Of a stretch of 64,000 bases of DNA, positions 9,937 to 15,142 are shown in pieces. The stretch spans positions 1,364,001 to 1,428,000 of the forward strand of contig NC_015957.1 of NCBI RefSeq assembly GCF_000147815.2, written 5' to 3'. The DNA is from Streptomyces violaceusniger Tu 4113 (GTDB lineage: Bacteria > Actinomycetota > Actinomycetes > Streptomycetales > Streptomycetaceae). The notes beneath the pieces are model-generated. The model did not search any database, was not told where the DNA came from, and was given only the letters and a program-made list of their open reading frames with translations. The translations under genes were made by a program, and so were the position numbers. The first letter of the stretch is position 1, and each line of letters starts with the position of its first letter.

Positions 9937-12231
9937 GTGACTGCAGCAACGTCCTCCACTCTGTTCCCGCAGGGCTCCACACCGGGTTCCTACGCGGCCA
10001 CGCCGCGTGACGCCGACGCGGTGCTCGACGGGCTCGACCCCGAGCAGCGCGAGGTGGCGACGTCCCTGCACGGCGCGGTGTGCGTGCTGGCCGGGGCCGG
10101 CACCGGCAAGACCCGCGCCATCACCCACCGGATCGCCTATGGGGTGCGCGCGGGCATGCTCCAGCCCGCCAGTGTGCTGGCCGTCACCTTCACCAACCGG
10201 GCGGCGGGGGAGATGCGCGGCCGGCTGCGGCAGCTCGGCGCGGGCGGGGTGCAGGCGCGCACCTTCCACTCGGCGGCCCTGCGGCAGTTGCAGTATTTCT
10301 GGCCCAAGGCGGTCGGCGGTGAGGTGCCGCGGCTGGTCGAGCGCAAGGTGCAGCTCGTGGCAGAGGCCGCCACGCGGTGCCGGGTCCGGCTGGACCGCAA
10401 TGAGCTGCGGGACGTGACCGGCGAGATCGAATGGTCGAAGGTCACCCAGACCGTGCCCGAGGACTATCCGGCCGTGGCCGCCAAATCCGGCCGGGAGGCC
10501 CCCCGCGACGCCGCCGAGATCGGCCGGATCTACGCCACCTATGAGCAGTTGAAGCGCGACCGCGGCGTCATCGACTTCGAGGATGTGCTGCTCCTCACGG
10601 TCGGTGTGCTCCAGGAGCGGCACGACATCGCCGATCAGGTGCGCCGTCAGTACCAGCACTTCGTGGTCGACGAGTACCAGGACGTCAGCCCGCTGCAGCA
10701 GCGGCTGCTGGAGCTGTGGCTGGGCGACCGGGACAGCCTGTGCGTGGTCGGGGACGCCAGCCAGACCATCTACTCCTTCACCGGCGCCACCCCCGACCAT
10801 CTGCTGGACTTCCGCACCCGCCACCCCGGGGCCACGGTGGTCAAGCTGATCCGGGACTACCGCTCCACCCCGCAGGTGGTCCACCTGGCCAATGGGCTGC
10901 TCTCCCAGGCCCGCGGCCGGGCCGCCGAGCACCGGCTGGAGCTGGTCTCCCAGCGGGAGGCGGGCCCCGACCCGGTCTACGCCGCCTATGCGGACGAGCC
11001 GGCCGAGGCCGAGGGCACCGCCCGCCGGATCCGCGAGCTGATCACCCCGGTCGAGCAGGGGGGCGGCGGCGTCCCGGCGAGCCAGATCGCGGTCCTCTAC
11101 CGGGTCAACGCCCAGTCGGAGCTCTATGAGCAGGCGCTGGCCGATGCCCAGGTGCCCTATCAGCTCCGCGGCGCCGAGCGGTTCTTCGAGCGGCCCGAGG
11201 TGCGCGAGGCGGGGCTGCTGCTGCGCGGCGCGGCCCGCGGCAGAAGTACCGACCCGGCGCTGGCGGATGCCGACATCCCGTCCCAGGTGCGGGCCGTGCT
11301 GGGCACGCGTGGCTGGACGCCCGAGCCCCCGGCGGGGTCGGGCGCGGTGCGCGACCGCTGGGAGTCCCTGGCCGCCCTGGTGCGGCTCGCCGAGGACTTC
11401 GCGGGCAGCCGCCCCGGGGCCACGCTTTCCGATCTGGTGGCGGAGCTCGACGAGCGGGCGGCGGCGCAGCACGCCCCGACCGTCGAGGGTGTGACCCTCG
11501 CCTCACTCCACGCGGCCAAGGGCCTCGAATGGGACGCCGTCTTCCTGGTCGGTCTCACCGAGGGGATGGTGCCGATCACCTACGCCAAGACGGACCAGCA
11601 GATCGAGGAGGAGCGTCGGCTGCTCTATGTGGGGGTCACCCGCGCCCGTCACCATCTGACGCTGTCCTGGGCGCTCTCGCGGGCTCCGGGCGGCCGGGCC
11701 TCCCGTCGCCCCACCCGCTTTCTCAACGGGCTGCGGCCCGGCTCCCAGGCCGTGGGCGCCCGCACCCTCGGCGGGGCCGGCGGAATCGAGCGCGGGGCGG
11801 CGGCCCCGGGCGGGGGCGGCGGGGTGCGCAGGCGGCGCGGTCCGGTCCACTGCCGGGTGTGCGGCCGGGCGCTGACCGACGCGGGCGAGATGAAGCTGAT
11901 GCGCTGCGAGGGCTGCCCGTCCGAGCTGGACGAGGCGCTCTATGAGCGGCTGCGCGACTGGCGGGCGGAGCAGGCGGGGCTGCTGGGACAGCCGGCCTAT
12001 TGCGTGTTCACCGACAAGACACTGCTCGCGATCGCCGAGGCCGTTCCGGGAACCGGATCGGAGCTCGCCCGCATCGCCGGTGTCGGACGACGCAAGCTCG
12101 ACCGGTTCGGAGCCGACGTTCTCGCGCTGTGCGAGGGGCGGGAACTGCCCTCGGCAGTCGATGGCGAGGGGGACGACGGTGCCGGGGGAAGCCATTCGGG
12201 TGACCCTTGGCAAAACTCGACGGAAAAATAG
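9937..12231 (+). CDS. uvrD2: UvrD2-type ATP-dependent DNA helicase with HRDC domain
   Basis: This is a 3'-5' SF1 helicase of 764 aa. Motifs are GAGTGKT (about 54-60), VDEYQDV, DASQTIYSFTGA and LHAAKGLEWDAVFLVGL, followed by ERRLLYVGVTRAR. The C-terminal half has a four-Cys zinc element (CRVCGRALTDAGEMK and then CEGC) and an HRDC domain (about residues 665-745). Both are diagnostic of actinobacterial UvrD2 rather than UvrD1/PcrA. It starts at GTG 9937. The gene sits immediately upstream of wblC, as uvrD2 sits upstream of whiB7 in mycobacteria. The candidate wblC promoter begins at its stop codon, so the coding end overlaps a regulatory region. Confidence 0.93.
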   Translation: MTAATSSTLFPQGSTPGSYAATPRDADAVLDGLDPEQREVATSLHGAVCVLAGAGTGKTRAITHRIAYGVRAGMLQPASVLAVTFTNRAAGEMRGRLRQLGAGGVQARTFHSAALRQLQYFWPKAVGGEVPRLVERKVQLVAEAATRCRVRLDRNELRDVTGEIEWSKVTQTVPEDYPAVAAKSGREAPRDAAEIGRIYATYEQLKRDRGVIDFEDVLLLTVGVLQERHDIADQVRRQYQHFVVDEYQDVSPLQQRLLELWLGDRDSLCVVGDASQTIYSFTGATPDHLLDFRTRHPGATVVKLIRDYRSTPQVVHLANGLLSQARGRAAEHRLELVSQREAGPDPVYAAYADEPAEAEGTARRIRELITPVEQGGGGVPASQIAVLYRVNAQSELYEQALADAQVPYQLRGAERFFERPEVREAGLLLRGAARGRSTDPALADADIPSQVRAVLGTRGWTPEPPAGSGAVRDRWESLAALVRLAEDFAGSRPGATLSDLVAELDERAAAQHAPTVEGVTLASLHAAKGLEWDAVFLVGLTEGMVPITYAKTDQQIEEERRLLYVGVTRARHHLTLSWALSRAPGGRASRRPTRFLNGLRPGSQAVGARTLGGAGGIERGAAAPGGGGGVRRRRGPVHCRVCGRALTDAGEMKLMRCEGCPSELDEALYERLRDWRAEQAGLLGQPAYCVFTDKTLLAIAEAVPGTGSELARIAGVGRRKLDRFGADVLALCEGRELPSAVDGEGDDGAGGSHSGDPWQNSTEK

Positions 12232-12262
12232 TTTGCGCGCGCGGAGGCCATACCCATAGCCT
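12221..12262 (+). promoter_or_regulatory. candidate WblC-autoregulated promoter
   Basis: An A-rich block GGAAAAATAG (12222-12231) directly precedes a TTGCGC -35 (12233-12238). After an 18-bp spacer comes TAGCCT (12257-12262), a TAnnnT -10. An AT-rich element touching the -35 is the hallmark of WhiB7/WblC-activated promoters. It overlaps the uvrD2 stop and would drive the long wblC leader. Confidence 0.5.
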
Positions 12263-12371
12263 TCCGAACACGGAGACAACGGCCCTTCCAGGAGCCGAGG
12301 ATTCCGTGTTGTACTGAACACCCGGACTGGTTTCGATCGGTCCCTGAGACGCCGAGAGGAGGCGAAGACCA

Positions 12372-12638
12372 GTGATCACCTTCATCAACACCATCAAAAA
12401 GGCCGATCGATCGGTCGTCGCCACCTGCCTGCTCGGCTCCGCGCTTCCTGGCACCGGTATGCCCGGCGTCAATGAGGAGCGCCTCAGTGAGCGACCGATC
12501 CAGGCACCTGCGGTAACGGCAGTGGCACAGGCAATGGCCTATGCCTTTGCGGCCAATGGTGCCGAATCCCGGGCGACGCAGCAGCACCACAAGACGTGGG
12601 CCTTCCGCAGGCTCGAACCCTGGAGTTATCCAGCCTGA
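12372..12638 (+). CDS. wblC leader ORF (regulatory uORF candidate)
   Basis: This is an 88-codon ORF in the wblC leader, starting at GTG 12372 with a GAGGAGG-type site about 10 bases upstream. It resembles no enzyme family I know. It ends RRLEPWSYPA just before an intrinsic terminator. Its last codons (CCC TGG A, 12618-12624) can pair with TCCAGGG (12660-12666), which is the foot of the terminator's 5' arm. Its stop codon lies inside a small hairpin (12634-12650). This is the layout expected of a translated leader sensing ribosome stalling. WhiB7/WblC genes are known to be induced by ribosome-targeting antibiotics through leader uORFs. The start codon is less certain than the 3' end; a shorter uORF could be the functional one. 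Confidence 0.6.
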   Translation: MITFINTIKKADRSVVATCLLGSALPGTGMPGVNEERLSERPIQAPAVTAVAQAMAYAFAANGAESRATQQHHKTWAFRRLEPWSYPA

Positions 12639-12705
12639 TCCAGGATCAGGTCGGCACCTTCCAGGGCCGCGGAACCCACACCGGGATCCGCGGCCCTTTT
12701 GATTT
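12618..12705 (+). promoter_or_regulatory. wblC transcription attenuator (terminator/antiterminator)
   Basis: An 11-bp perfect stem (12663-12673 with 12687-12697, GC-rich, 13-nt loop) ends in TTTT then GATTT, a textbook intrinsic terminator 50 bp before the wblC start. A competing 7-bp helix pairs CCCTGGA (12618-12624, inside the uORF) with TCCAGGG (12660-12666). It would break the base of the terminator. A third hairpin CCTGAT/ATCAGG (12634-12650) covers the uORF stop. Confidence 0.7.
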
Positions 12706-12753
12706 GCCAGAGCCCGGCCACCAGCCGGACCAAAGAGACGAGGACCACACACC

Positions 12754-13116
12754 GTGCAACTCAACGCACACGCCCCGTCCGCATCGACCGACCTGAACCC
12801 ACCGCCTGACTCCTCGGAGGACTCCTTGACCCCGCTCACCGCCCTCACCGAACTCGATGACGCCATCGAGAACCTGGGTGTAGCTGTTCCGTGCCGTTCG
12901 TACGACCCGGAGGTCTTCTTCGCCGAGTCCCCGGCCGACGTCGAGTACGCGAAGTCGCTGTGCCAGACCTGCCCGCTGCGTGAGGCCTGCCTCGCCGGTG
13001 CCAAGGACCGTCGCGAGCCCTGGGGCGTCTGGGGCGGGGAGCTCTTCGTCCAGGGCGTGGTGGTCGCCCGCAAGCGGCCGCGTGGCCGCCCGCGTAAGAA
13101 CCCGGTTGCGGCATGA
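12754..13116 (+). CDS. wblC: WblC / WhiB7-type Fe-S regulator of intrinsic antibiotic resistance
   Basis: This is a 120-aa WhiB-family protein. The four cluster Cys are 47, 70, 73 and 79 (C-X22-C-X2-C-X5-C). The turn motif is EPWGVWGGE (88-96); the EPW form is typical of WhiB7. A C-terminal AT-hook, RGRPRK (110-115), is the feature that distinguishes WhiB7/WblC from other Wbl proteins. The family binds the primary sigma factor and activates resistance genes after ribosome-targeting antibiotics, including its own gene. It starts at GTG 12754 downstream of the attenuator. Its stop overlaps the next ORF by 4 bp. Position after uvrD2 agrees with the mycobacterial whiB7 locus. Confidence 0.95.
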   Translation: MQLNAHAPSASTDLNPPPDSSEDSLTPLTALTELDDAIENLGVAVPCRSYDPEVFFAESPADVEYAKSLCQTCPLREACLAGAKDRREPWGVWGGELFVQGVVVARKRPRGRPRKNPVAA

Positions 13117-13424
13117 GCACCACCGGCACCATCGATCGCCCAGCGACGCACGACCCCATGAAGCAGGTCCCGACGATGACCCCACCGGTCTCCGACACCC
13201 CAGCACCCGAAACGTCCGGCGCGCCCGAGTCGCGCCAGAACAGGAACCGAGAGATGCAACTCATCCAAGAAGCCCTGGCGCGTGCGCATATGCACGACCG
13301 GCTTCAGGAGGCAGAGTCCGAACGGCCCGCCGCTCGGCTCGCCGCCGCCCGCCGGATGCAGCGCCGCGCGGAGCGTGCCTCGCTCCGCGCCCGCCGTGCC
13401 CTGGCCATGGCGCTCATGCAGTGA
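13113..13424 (+). CDS. hypothetical 103-aa protein translationally coupled to wblC
   Basis: The start ATG overlaps the wblC stop (ATGA), so the two genes are almost certainly translated from one mRNA. The N-terminal 45 residues are Pro/Thr/Ser-rich and probably disordered. The C-terminal half (about 48-103) is a strongly charged Arg/Ala/Glu helix without Cys, a candidate coiled coil or nucleic-acid-binding helix. I recognise no family. Because it is co-expressed with WblC after antibiotic stress, a role near the ribosome, RNA or WblC itself is possible but unproven. A strong terminator follows at 13509. Confidence 0.75.
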   Translation: MSTTGTIDRPATHDPMKQVPTMTPPVSDTPAPETSGAPESRQNRNREMQLIQEALARAHMHDRLQEAESERPAARLAAARRMQRRAERASLRARRALAMALMQ

Positions 13425-13508
13425 CCACCAGGTGCGGTACCGGCCAGAGCCGGGGCTGACAGCACCACACGCCGACGGGTCATACGCCGACCCGTCACGT
13501 GACCACAG

Positions 13509-13536
13509 AGGGCCGGTCCGATCGGACCGGCCCTTT
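13509..13536. terminator. bidirectional intrinsic terminator
   Basis: A perfect palindrome runs from 13509 to 13534 (12-bp GC-rich arms around a central AT) and is followed by TTT. It ends the wblC transcript and, in the opposite direction, lies downstream of the convergent ABC1 kinase gene. Confidence 0.85.
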
Positions 13537-13609
13537 GGCTACCCCGAAGCGCCTGCGCTCCGGGGCGACACCACCCGGCGGCAGAGGCGCGGCCGGGTGC
13601 CGCGCGTGC

Positions 13610-15142
13610 TCAGGCCGAGGTCTCCGCGGCCTCGGACTTCTCCTCGGTGCCCTGTGCGGCACCTTCTCCGGCTTTGGCGGCTTCCCCGGTTCCGGCGGCT
13701 TCTTTGGCTTCGGCGCCTTCTTCGATACCGGCGAGTTCTTCGGCTTCGACGGCTTCTCCGGTTGCGGCGCCTTCTTCAGCTTCGGCGCCGTCCTCGGGTT
13801 CCGGGCTCTTGGCGAAGCCGGGGACCCATGCCTCGAGTTCATCCCGCAGCCGCACCGTGGCGCCCAACTGGCACAGCACCCCGATGGTGCTCAGGGTCAC
13901 CCGGTGGATCAGCAGATAGGCGGGCGGCAGATTCAGCTGATTGCCCAGCTCATGGACGGGGGAGTGACGGTCGGCCATCCGCGCCGCCTGGCTGCGCAGC
14001 CACTGCCGGTCGAAGACGAACGCGTCGACCTGGGCCGGTTCGAGGATCGGCAGCAGAAAGTCCAGCAGGTCGTCCGGGTCCATCTCGATGGTCGGCTTGA
14101 CGAAGCCCTCCCCGCGCATCAGCTCGTAGACCCCCATGGCGTCGCCCTGGAGTGCCATGCGCAGTGCGATGCCGATGGGCTCCGGAAGCCCTTCCGGGAG
14201 CCGGTTCACCGAACCGAAGTCCAGCACCCCCAGCTTCCACCGCTCCGGCGGTCCGTCCGGGGCGTCACCGGTCAGCAGCCGGAAGTTTCCCGGATGCGGA
14301 TCGGCGTGCAGCAGTCCGGTGCGGGACGCCCCCGAGAACAGGAAGCGGGCCAGTAGCTGCCCGGCGCGGCCCCGCTCCTCCTGGGTGCCGTCGGCGATCA
14401 CCTCGGAGAGCGGTATCCCCTCGAGCCATTCGGTGATCAGTATCTGATCGCTCTGGTGCACCACCGCGGGCACCACGATCTCCGCGTCCTGCGCGTACTC
14501 CTCCGCATGGGCCCGCTGGGACGCCGCCTCCAGTTCGTAGTCCAGCTCCTCGGCGACCCGGTCGCGCAACTCCGCGATCAGCGGCTTGATGTCCAGCCCC
14601 GGTACCAGCGGCCCCAGCACCCGGGCGAAGCGGCTCAGTTGGTTGAGGTCGGACAGCAGCGCCTCGCCCGCGCCCGGGTACTGCACCTTGACCGCCACCG
14701 TGCGCCCGTCGTGCCAGACCGCCCGATGCACCTGCCCGATCGAGGCGGCCGCCGCCGGCTTGTCCTCGAACTCCTGGAACAGCTCCGGCCAGTCCGGGCC
14801 CAGCCGCTCCTCCAGAGCCGCGTGGACCGTGCGGCTGGGCATGGGAGGGGCCGCTTCCTGGAGCTTGGTCAGGGCCGCTCGGTAGGGCCTGGCTATCTCC
14901 TCGGGCAGCGCCGACTCGAAGACCGACATGGCCTGCCCGAGCTTCATGGCCCCGCCCTTGAGCTCACCGAGGACCTTGAACATCTGCTCGGCGGTGCGCT
15001 GCTGTACCTCGCGCGCGACCATCTCCGCCGGCCGTCCCCCTATCCGCTTCCCGAGCCCCCACGTGGCGCGCCCCGCGAATCCCAAGGGCAGCGCCGCCAG
15101 TTTGGCGGTACGGGTGATCGCCTTGCGCGGCAGATCGGTCAT
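13610..15142 (-). CDS. ABC1/AarF (UbiB-like) atypical kinase
   Basis: This is an AarF/ABC1-family protein-kinase-like protein of about 510 aa. Family marks include the KxGQ-type segment (GGAMKLGQAMSVFE), the Ala-rich loop region (SIGQVHRAVWHDGRTVAVKVQYPG), the HADPHPGNF catalytic loop and the LDFG metal-binding motif. Such proteins support lipid or quinone-linked pathways, usually at membranes. ATG 15142 is chosen because GGAGGGG lies just upstream; the longer TTG start would be made of that site. The C-terminal 60 residues are a low-complexity Glu/Ala/Gly/Lys tail outside the kinase fold. Conserved next to uvrD2-whiB7 in mycobacteria. Substrate unknown. Confidence 0.88.
   Translation of the reverse strand: MTDLPRKAITRTAKLAALPLGFAGRATWGLGKRIGGRPAEMVAREVQQRTAEQMFKVLGELKGGAMKLGQAMSVFESALPEEIARPYRAALTKLQEAAPPMPSRTVHAALEERLGPDWPELFQEFEDKPAAAASIGQVHRAVWHDGRTVAVKVQYPGAGEALLSDLNQLSRFARVLGPLVPGLDIKPLIAELRDRVAEELDYELEAASQRAHAEEYAQDAEIVVPAVVHQSDQILITEWLEGIPLSEVIADGTQEERGRAGQLLARFLFSGASRTGLLHADPHPGNFRLLTGDAPDGPPERWKLGVLDFGSVNRLPEGLPEPIGIALRMALQGDAMGVYELMRGEGFVKPTIEMDPDDLLDFLLPILEPAQVDAFVFDRQWLRSQAARMADRHSPVHELGNQLNLPPAYLLIHRVTLSTIGVLCQLGATVRLRDELEAWVPGFAKSPEPEDGAEAEEGAATGEAVEAEELAGIEEGAEAKEAAGTGEAAKAGEGAAQGTEEKSEAAETSA

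Follow-up and report, generated by a model that had tools for sequence, protein, structure and literature searches.

The wblC leader among known attenuators

WblC/WhiB7 governs the intrinsic resistance of actinomycetes to many ribosome-targeting antibiotics, and the way in which the leader of its gene reads ribosome stalling matters. Excerpts of three papers (PMC11550727, PMC9618640, PMC13393426) describe whiB7/wblC leaders in which a Rho-independent terminator is favored by translation of an upstream open reading frame (uORF) and an antiterminator results when antibiotics or a lack of amino acids disrupt that translation; parts of two others (PMC12421871, PMC7157823) also describe WblC attenuation. 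The original source, according to passages citing it in PMC11550727, PMC9618640, PMC12421871, PMC13393426, and PMC7157823, is Lee, Lee and Roe (2022, Mol Microbiol 117:179). Here, we analyzed the wblC leader in a 64,000-nt stretch of Streptomyces violaceusniger Tu 4113 (NC_015957.1), called the window below; feature positions are given within this stretch. The leader lies between a helicase-type gene (end 12231) and wblC (12754). As the mechanism has already been published for whiB7/wblC, the leader represents the known system in a further species.

The window contains a WhiB7/WblC-type gene, an open uORF with a Shine-Dalgarno (SD) sequence, a predicted terminator, a mutually exclusive antiterminator, and a WblC box 3 nt from the -35 element. 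Compared with the whiB7/wblC attenuator as far as the excerpts describe it, the gene, the uORF preceding an intrinsic terminator, the antiterminator formed upon uORF stalling, and WblC autoregulation are the same. There is no difference in kind, and here the antiterminator was resolved into three helices, AT2, AT1, and P2, with class-wide covariation. The leader also resembles that of ilvB1 of Mycobacterium tuberculosis, in which, according to the available part of PMC13236596, completed uORF translation masks about 26 nt and permits the terminator; however, the ilvB1 leader has four branched-chain amino-acid control codons, whereas no single-amino-acid control run was established in the wblC uORF. 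In the Streptomyces ARE-ABCF attenuators are5sc and tiaA, a drug-stalled uORF ribosome is likewise thought to swap the terminator for an antiterminator (excerpts of PMC12421871). According to the same excerpts, ARE-ABCF uORFs comprise 3–9 codons, ribosomes stall at their start codon, and their ribosome-binding sites overlap the antiterminator; in contrast, the wblC uORF has 88 codons and the antiterminator strand lies at its end. A literature search limited to one library found no paper on a wblC leader antiterminator in Streptomyces, and the excerpts of the two papers on a whiB7 leader antiterminator that it found gave no fold. The present analysis contributes a testable map of the pairings that could be disrupted and repaired, as well as a covariance model by which the element is recognized across many genera of the class. 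It further suggests that the switch is timed by Pro codons ahead of the uORF stop, and it points to a Streptomyces gene of no known function standing beside wblC at every locus examined.

The leader and wblC are composed of the following features, all on the + strand.

12223–12262, +, WblC-type promoter: AT-rich box GAAAAAT, 3 nt, -35 TTGCGC (12233–12238), 18-nt spacer, and -10 TAGCCT (12257–12262); pattern search in relatives
12357–12362, +, SD sequence AGGAGG of the uORF; read directly
12372–12638, +, uORF of 88 codons with a GTG start and a TGA stop (12636–12638); list of open reading frames (ORFs) and homologues
12603–12611, +, predicted AT2 5' strand UUCCGC-(A)-GG, within the uORF; minimum-free-energy fold and permutation test
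12618–12625, +, predicted AT1 5' strand CCCUGGA(G), within the uORF; fold and permutation test
12620–12633, +, P1, a possible competing hairpin CUGGA-GUUA-UCCAG; pairing in Streptomyces cores
12633–12651, +, predicted P2 inner stem, 12633–12640 with 12644–12651, plus CC:GG 12630–12631 with 12653–12654; fold and two-sided changes
12659–12674, +, predicted antiterminator 3' strand, AT1 (12659–12666) followed by AT2 (12667–12674), overlapping the terminator 5' arm; folds
12663–12706, +, predicted intrinsic terminator: 11 bp (12663–12673 with 12687–12697), A.A mismatch, 3 bp, and T-rich tail; conserved pairing
12754–13116, +, wblC (WhiB7 orthologue), 120 aa, GTG start; PF02467

An earlier reading of this stretch, made from its letters (the sequence-only reading), had proposed an AT-rich promoter followed by an 88-codon uORF ending just before an 11-bp intrinsic terminator, and all three features are present where it placed them. 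The promoter reads GAAAAAT-AGT-TTGCGC-N18-TAGCCT (12223–12262). Sites of this form amounted to 93 distinct ones among 147 Streptomyces leaders (strict pattern; identical sites counted once, the rest misfit). The rule given for S. coelicolor in the available part of PMC7157823 is a GAAAWY box 3 nt before the -35 element and a spacer of 16–19 bp. The window promoter fits it in box distance and spacer; the hexamer at that distance reads AAAAAT versus GAAAWY, with the mismatch falling on the first base of the box. As the promoter agrees with the published WblC rule, WblC autoregulation is likely in the window strain too.

The AGGAGG sequence ends 9 nt upstream of the uORF GTG start, and a full SD sequence precedes the chosen start in 137 of the 139 unique Streptomyces uORFs, although the start itself was picked by its SD sequence. 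Database search gave 39 homologues of the uORF peptide, which belong, where named, to Streptomyces or its close kin Actinacidiphila. Downstream of the uORF, the 11 bp of the terminator are followed by an A.A mismatch, 3 bp, and TTTTGATTTG. Its pairs were formed in 99.9% of the cells of an alignment of 115 distinct Streptomyces cores, and they are nearly invariant.

Predicted antiterminator fold and covariation

The minimum-free-energy fold of the intermediate 12590–12677, a transcript containing the terminator 5' arm but not yet the 3' arm, was AT2+AT1+P2 at -39.9 kcal/mol. AT2 pairs UUCCGC-(A)-GG with CC-GCGGAA, AT1 pairs CCCUGGAG with UUCCAGGG, and P2 joins 12633–12640 to 12644–12651. In this fold, the terminator 5' arm is taken up jointly by AT2 and AT1, and the uORF stop codon is paired inside P2. 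The sequence-only reading had described a 7-bp antiterminator whose 5' strand (12618–12624), in the last uORF codons, pairs with 12660–12666. The strand and its pairing were recovered, but the helix does not stand alone: according to the folds, it is the middle of the longer predicted antiterminator AT2+AT1+P2.

The Streptomyces set comprised 147 loci (80, 30, 16, and 20 plus the window; the window locus is present three times, as the window, L081, and L111), and 115 distinct core segments were left after 32 duplicates were dropped. In these, the composite structure was paired in 97.3% of cells, compared with 23.8–49.0% when the partner strand was slid by 1–3 columns. Two-sided changes were found in 5 of the 25 pairs versus 2.2 in shuffles and in 14 cells versus 3.6; four of the changed pairs belong to P2, which has 10 pairs, and one to AT2. 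AT1 and AT2 were both paired in all of 119 distinct Streptomyces cores, and the stop codon was paired in P2 in 117 of them. In one locus (L089), an altered base of the terminator 5' arm is matched by corresponding substitutions in the 3' arm and in the AT2 strand, with the caveat that a neighboring substitution within the same codon disrupts a different AT2 pair.

Outside the genus, 60 loci of other genera of the class were collected, of which 49 had a parsable core and 11 did not. AT2 appeared in the intermediate folds of 45 of the 49 cores, AT1 in 44, and both in 40. Permutation tests were carried out with 43 representatives (4 Streptomyces, 39 others); kinship was ignored, so that the z values are too optimistic. 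The native AT1 score was above all 2000 permutations (z 7.0), none of 5000 reached that of P2 (z 7.2), and 8 of 2000 reached that of AT2 (z 2.7). Altered strands that still pair include CCTCGAG with CTCGAGG and CCTCGAG with CTTGAGG in AT1, GCACTG with CAGTGC and CCGGAT with ATCCGG in P2, and, as further helices in the class, GCACTGAC with GTCAGTGC and GTCCGC with GCGGAC. A class alignment of 31 sequences was made from 37 of the 49 cores by removing 7 register-shifted or near-duplicate sequences and adding the window. It was paired in 77.4% of cells (74.5% in shuffles, 26.7–55.9% when slid); its covariation score exceeded all of 500 shuffles, and its number of cells with two-sided change exceeded all but one. 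Judged from these comparisons, AT1 and P2 are backed by class-wide covariation, and AT2 more weakly. Covariation, which the sequence-only reading had named as a check on its helices, was accordingly found across the class for AT1 and P2, but the terminator, as well as AT1 inside Streptomyces, is too invariant to covary. Conserved antiterminator structures in sub-clades of actinomycetes are reportedly mentioned in the abstract of the 2022 study by Lee and colleagues.

The position of the element relative to the uORF end also recurs: the AT1 strand begins 17 or 18 nt ahead of the stop codon in 24 of the 43 representatives. Overlap between the stop codon and the best 6-bp P2 helix occurs in 16/43; in the others, the helix ends just before the stop. 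Because P2 ends before the stop in most class representatives, pairing of the stop codon within the predicted stem holds for Streptomyces and not for the class.

A covariance model, R1, was built on AT2+AT1+P2 and run on 197 class genomes with strict filters. It matched 89 genomes, representing 43 of 90 genera and including 21 from which the model had been built. Of its 90 matches, 87 lay 7–321 nt upstream of the wblC match in the same orientation, and 3 were elsewhere. In the window's own genome, the wblC leader was the sole convincing match. The second-best match there (E 0.06) was considered as a further copy and rejected, since it lies inside a coding gene; matches 3–8 had E values above 3.

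A hairpin of the form CUGGA-GNNA-UCCAG (P1, 12620–12633), which would compete with AT1, was also observed. It is kept in most Streptomyces with the rare codons AGN GAT CCA, and 97.6% of its cells were paired in the 115 Streptomyces cores, with zero pairs showing two-sided change.

Proposed ribosome-mediated attenuation and its alternatives

We propose that the leader controls the wblC operon, with high probability, as a ribosome-mediated transcription attenuator. The WblC-dependent promoter would make the leader, and the uORF would be translated behind RNA polymerase. A ribosome keeping pace to the stop would cover P2 together with the greater part of the AT1 5' strand, the terminator arms would then pair, and transcription would end before wblC. 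When a drug or a shortage of charged tRNA stops the ribosome no later than about codon 73, the end of the uORF and the incoming terminator 5' arm could form AT2+AT1+P2; this composite hairpin would prevent timely formation of the terminator, and wblC and the overlapping ORF would be transcribed. WblC would then raise its own promoter. The proposal builds on the observed anatomy, conservation, folds, and AT1/P2 covariation; in addition, we infer the ribosome positions, the kinetic competition, and the co-induction of the ORF.

The ribosome geometry was derived from an assumed 30-nt footprint. On this assumption, a ribosome whose A site holds the stop codon covers 12621–12650, which includes almost the whole of P2 and the larger part of the AT1 strand, and one at or before codon 73 leaves AT2, AT1, and P2 all free. 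When the stop position was masked in a shorter core, the intermediate changed from -39.9 to -18.7 kcal/mol and the antiterminator was lost, with part of AT2 still possible. Over 29 of the 43 representatives, the mean sequestration of the terminator arm by the uORF fell from 0.76 with the ribosome upstream to 0.59 with the ribosome at the stop, and the value was lower at the stop in 25 of them. Two forms of ribosome constraint gave nearly equal values.

Several results weigh against this proposal. On the full leader, the terminator conformer (-56.4 kcal/mol) was favored over the antiterminator (-50.6 kcal/mol) even without a ribosome, and the unconstrained minimum of 12590–12706 was already the terminator (-56.8 kcal/mol). 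Given this preference, the decision between the two conformers would have to fall while the leader is still being transcribed, i.e., kinetically. Static folding of the window barely separated the ribosome states, with sequestration of 0.99 for a ribosome 26 codons upstream, 0.89 for none, and 0.87 for one at the stop, and 4 of the 29 representatives showed no drop. Folding with and without a ribosome mask, a check named in the sequence-only reading, turned out as expected in most representatives but hardly so in the window. That reading had argued that translation to the stop masks the antiterminator strand and permits termination and that upstream stalling allows readthrough. Its outline agrees with the mechanism published for whiB7/wblC, but the switch is not shown by static folding of the window alone, and the finished leader prefers the terminator. 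Within Streptomyces, AT1, whose strand hardly varies, had no two-sided pair change at all, and when the structure was taken as a whole, additional pair types did not exceed shuffles (71/500). In the class, 9 of the 49 cores lacked AT1 or AT2 in their fold, the number of two-sided pairs in the alignment was not above shuffles (232/500), and the structure slid by -1 had more double-changed cells than the true register (23 versus 19), perhaps owing to an extra G in some leaders. R1 gave no match in 108 of the 197 class genomes, 26 of the 197 having no WblC match either, and some leaders, e.g., L212, L213, and L218, have the terminator but lack AT1. The proposal also does not account for P1 and the conserved rare codons in the middle of the uORF.

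Some of the evidence would also suit other mechanisms. In an ErmCL-type arrest peptide, a drug-bound ribosome is stalled by a specific nascent chain and the switch depends on the peptide sequence. The uORF C-terminus is indeed conserved, as EPW.DPA-stop in most Streptomyces and often as W.PPV-stop elsewhere, with Pro at -2 in 136/139 Streptomyces uORFs and 40/49 class cores and Pro-Pro at -3 and -2 in 33 of the latter; since all four Pro codons are in use at this end, the conservation may reflect selection on the amino acid. However, the same end coincides with the AT1 and P2 strands, the peptides of different families were alike, by eye, only there, and the ratio of nonsynonymous to synonymous substitution rates (dN/dS) was 0.75 for the uORF (47 non-overlapping pairs) versus 0.13 for wblC (those pairs with equal-length wblC). 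We thus consider dependence on the peptide quite unlikely; the uORF body looks less like a specific arrest peptide than like a track whose length gauges if ribosomes keep pace, and the length of the uORFs (median 107 codons in 139 Streptomyces) fits this. Possibly, the terminal Pro would slow the ribosome at the stop. A trp-type attenuator sensing one amino acid, e.g., alanine through Ala codons, on which drugs would act only indirectly, is unlikely as well. The middle of the uORF is Ala-rich and keeps rare GCA codons in Streptomyces (119/136 Ala at 12504, 89/113 at 12525), and the available part of a review reports that wblC and whiB7 respond to amino-acid starvation too. Nevertheless, the Ala content of the whole uORF (16 of the 88 codons in the window, median 0.17 in Streptomyces) is about the class background (0.15 over the final 80 codons of uORFs from the class), and other rare A/T-ending codons, GTA, TTT, TAT, GGA, and GAA, are kept as well.

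The two remaining explanations are less probable still. If the pairings governed access to the wblC start or RNA stability, the hairpin need be no working terminator, and its T-tract is in fact imperfect and interrupted (TTTTGATTTG), and a generic terminator scan, limited to loops of at most 8 nt and requiring 5 T, listed none in the leader. Control by translation or RNA decay is nonetheless very unlikely: a near-identical hairpin, usually with a T-rich tail, is present in 49 of the 60 class leaders, the conserved alternative pairs with the terminator 5' arm and not with the wblC start, and the excerpts of the whiB7/wblC papers report premature termination. If the uORF and the terminator arm, both GC-rich, were complementary by chance, this would account for the finding that swapped duplexes bind well, the native mean being -20.8 versus -18.7 kcal/mol and the native partner standing in the best tenth for 23% of 48 cores (8 of them mis-anchored: L166–L172 and L181). 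Such chance pairing is extremely unlikely in view of the slid controls, of the AT1 and P2 permutation tests, in which the native value exceeded every permutation, and of the R1 matches, nearly all of them just upstream of wblC.

The attenuator may also be part of a wider scheme, possible but doubtful at present: a single RNA element shared across the class, with an inner stem that includes the uORF stop or lies directly next to it, a Pro or Pro-Pro brake that would hold the terminating ribosome and make termination the default, rare mid-uORF codons that would tune ribosome arrival, and, in Streptomyces, a switch that would also deliver a 103-aa helical partner of WblC.

As a separate observation, a mid-uORF GCGGCC (12549–12554) is able to pair with GGCCGC of the terminator 5' arm, and this pairing may blur the static folding test.

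The downstream ORF and minor observations

Two further features were found downstream of the wblC start region.

13113–13424, +, conserved small ORF of 103 aa, starting inside the wblC stop (ATGA); present in relatives
13510–13536, +, likely end-of-operon hairpin GGGCCGGTCC-GATC-GGACCGGCCC-TTT; read directly from the window letters

The wblC stop overlaps the ORF start by 4 nt (ATGA, 13113–13116). The ORF was found in all 101 genomes of a genus sample and adjoins wblC at each of the 147 Streptomyces loci (the window locus counted three times), with the 4-nt overlap in 141 and gaps of 11–32 nt in 6. This conserved overlap supports translational coupling of the ORF to wblC, as the sequence-only reading had suggested, and we infer that the two would be induced together. 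Outside the genus, the search reached order level and gave weak partial matches in 2 of the 15 genomes of an order sample. Protein search yielded 1445 relatives, and among the 120 matches listed, the source was Streptomyces wherever named; sequence searches of Pfam, NCBIfam, and PDB gave no relative. AlphaFold2 predicted one long basic helix (residues 37–102) with a mean pLDDT (predicted local distance difference test) of 75.2 and a pTM (predicted template modeling score) of 0.35. According to the available part of PMC4398421, the wblC-flanking genes SCO5189 and SCO5191 of S. coelicolor rise together with wblC in a dasR mutant; judged from gene order alone, SCO5191 should be the orthologue of the downstream ORF. 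The simplest guess is that the ORF encodes an accessory of the WblC response. In one Streptomyces genome (G079), another, partial relative of the ORF was present at a different place (53% over residues 49–99, E 1.5e-4).

WblC itself matched PF02467 with 55.7 bits (cut-off 23.6) and is 98% identical to proteins of S. antioxidans, S. rugosispiralis, and S. himastatinicus; its AT-hook match of 15.4 bits was under the cut-off of 17.4. An Rfam search of 11000–15000 gave two matches, both far under the gathering scores and neither within the leader. The hairpin at 13510–13536 was not in the list of the generic terminator scan.

Conserved codons were observed at several sites in Streptomyces relatives. 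A mid-uORF block (12486–12566), far upstream of the antiterminator, keeps the rare codons AAT, CGA (136/138 Arg), GCA, GAA, GTA, TAT, TTT, GGT, and GGA, with the window deviating at some positions; slow translation, RNA structure, or a pause site could be the cause. Within the uORF's first third, AAA ATG ACC GAT CGC TCG GTC (12396–12420) is conserved in most relatives, as is GGC ACC GGT (12450–12458). Early uORF stretches are complementary to later ones, with no clear compensatory change in the Streptomyces listing. At the wblC start (window 12754–12840), the rare codons CAA, GAA, GTA, CCT, and TTG are kept among 80 equal-length orthologues, a set that excludes the shorter wblC of the window.

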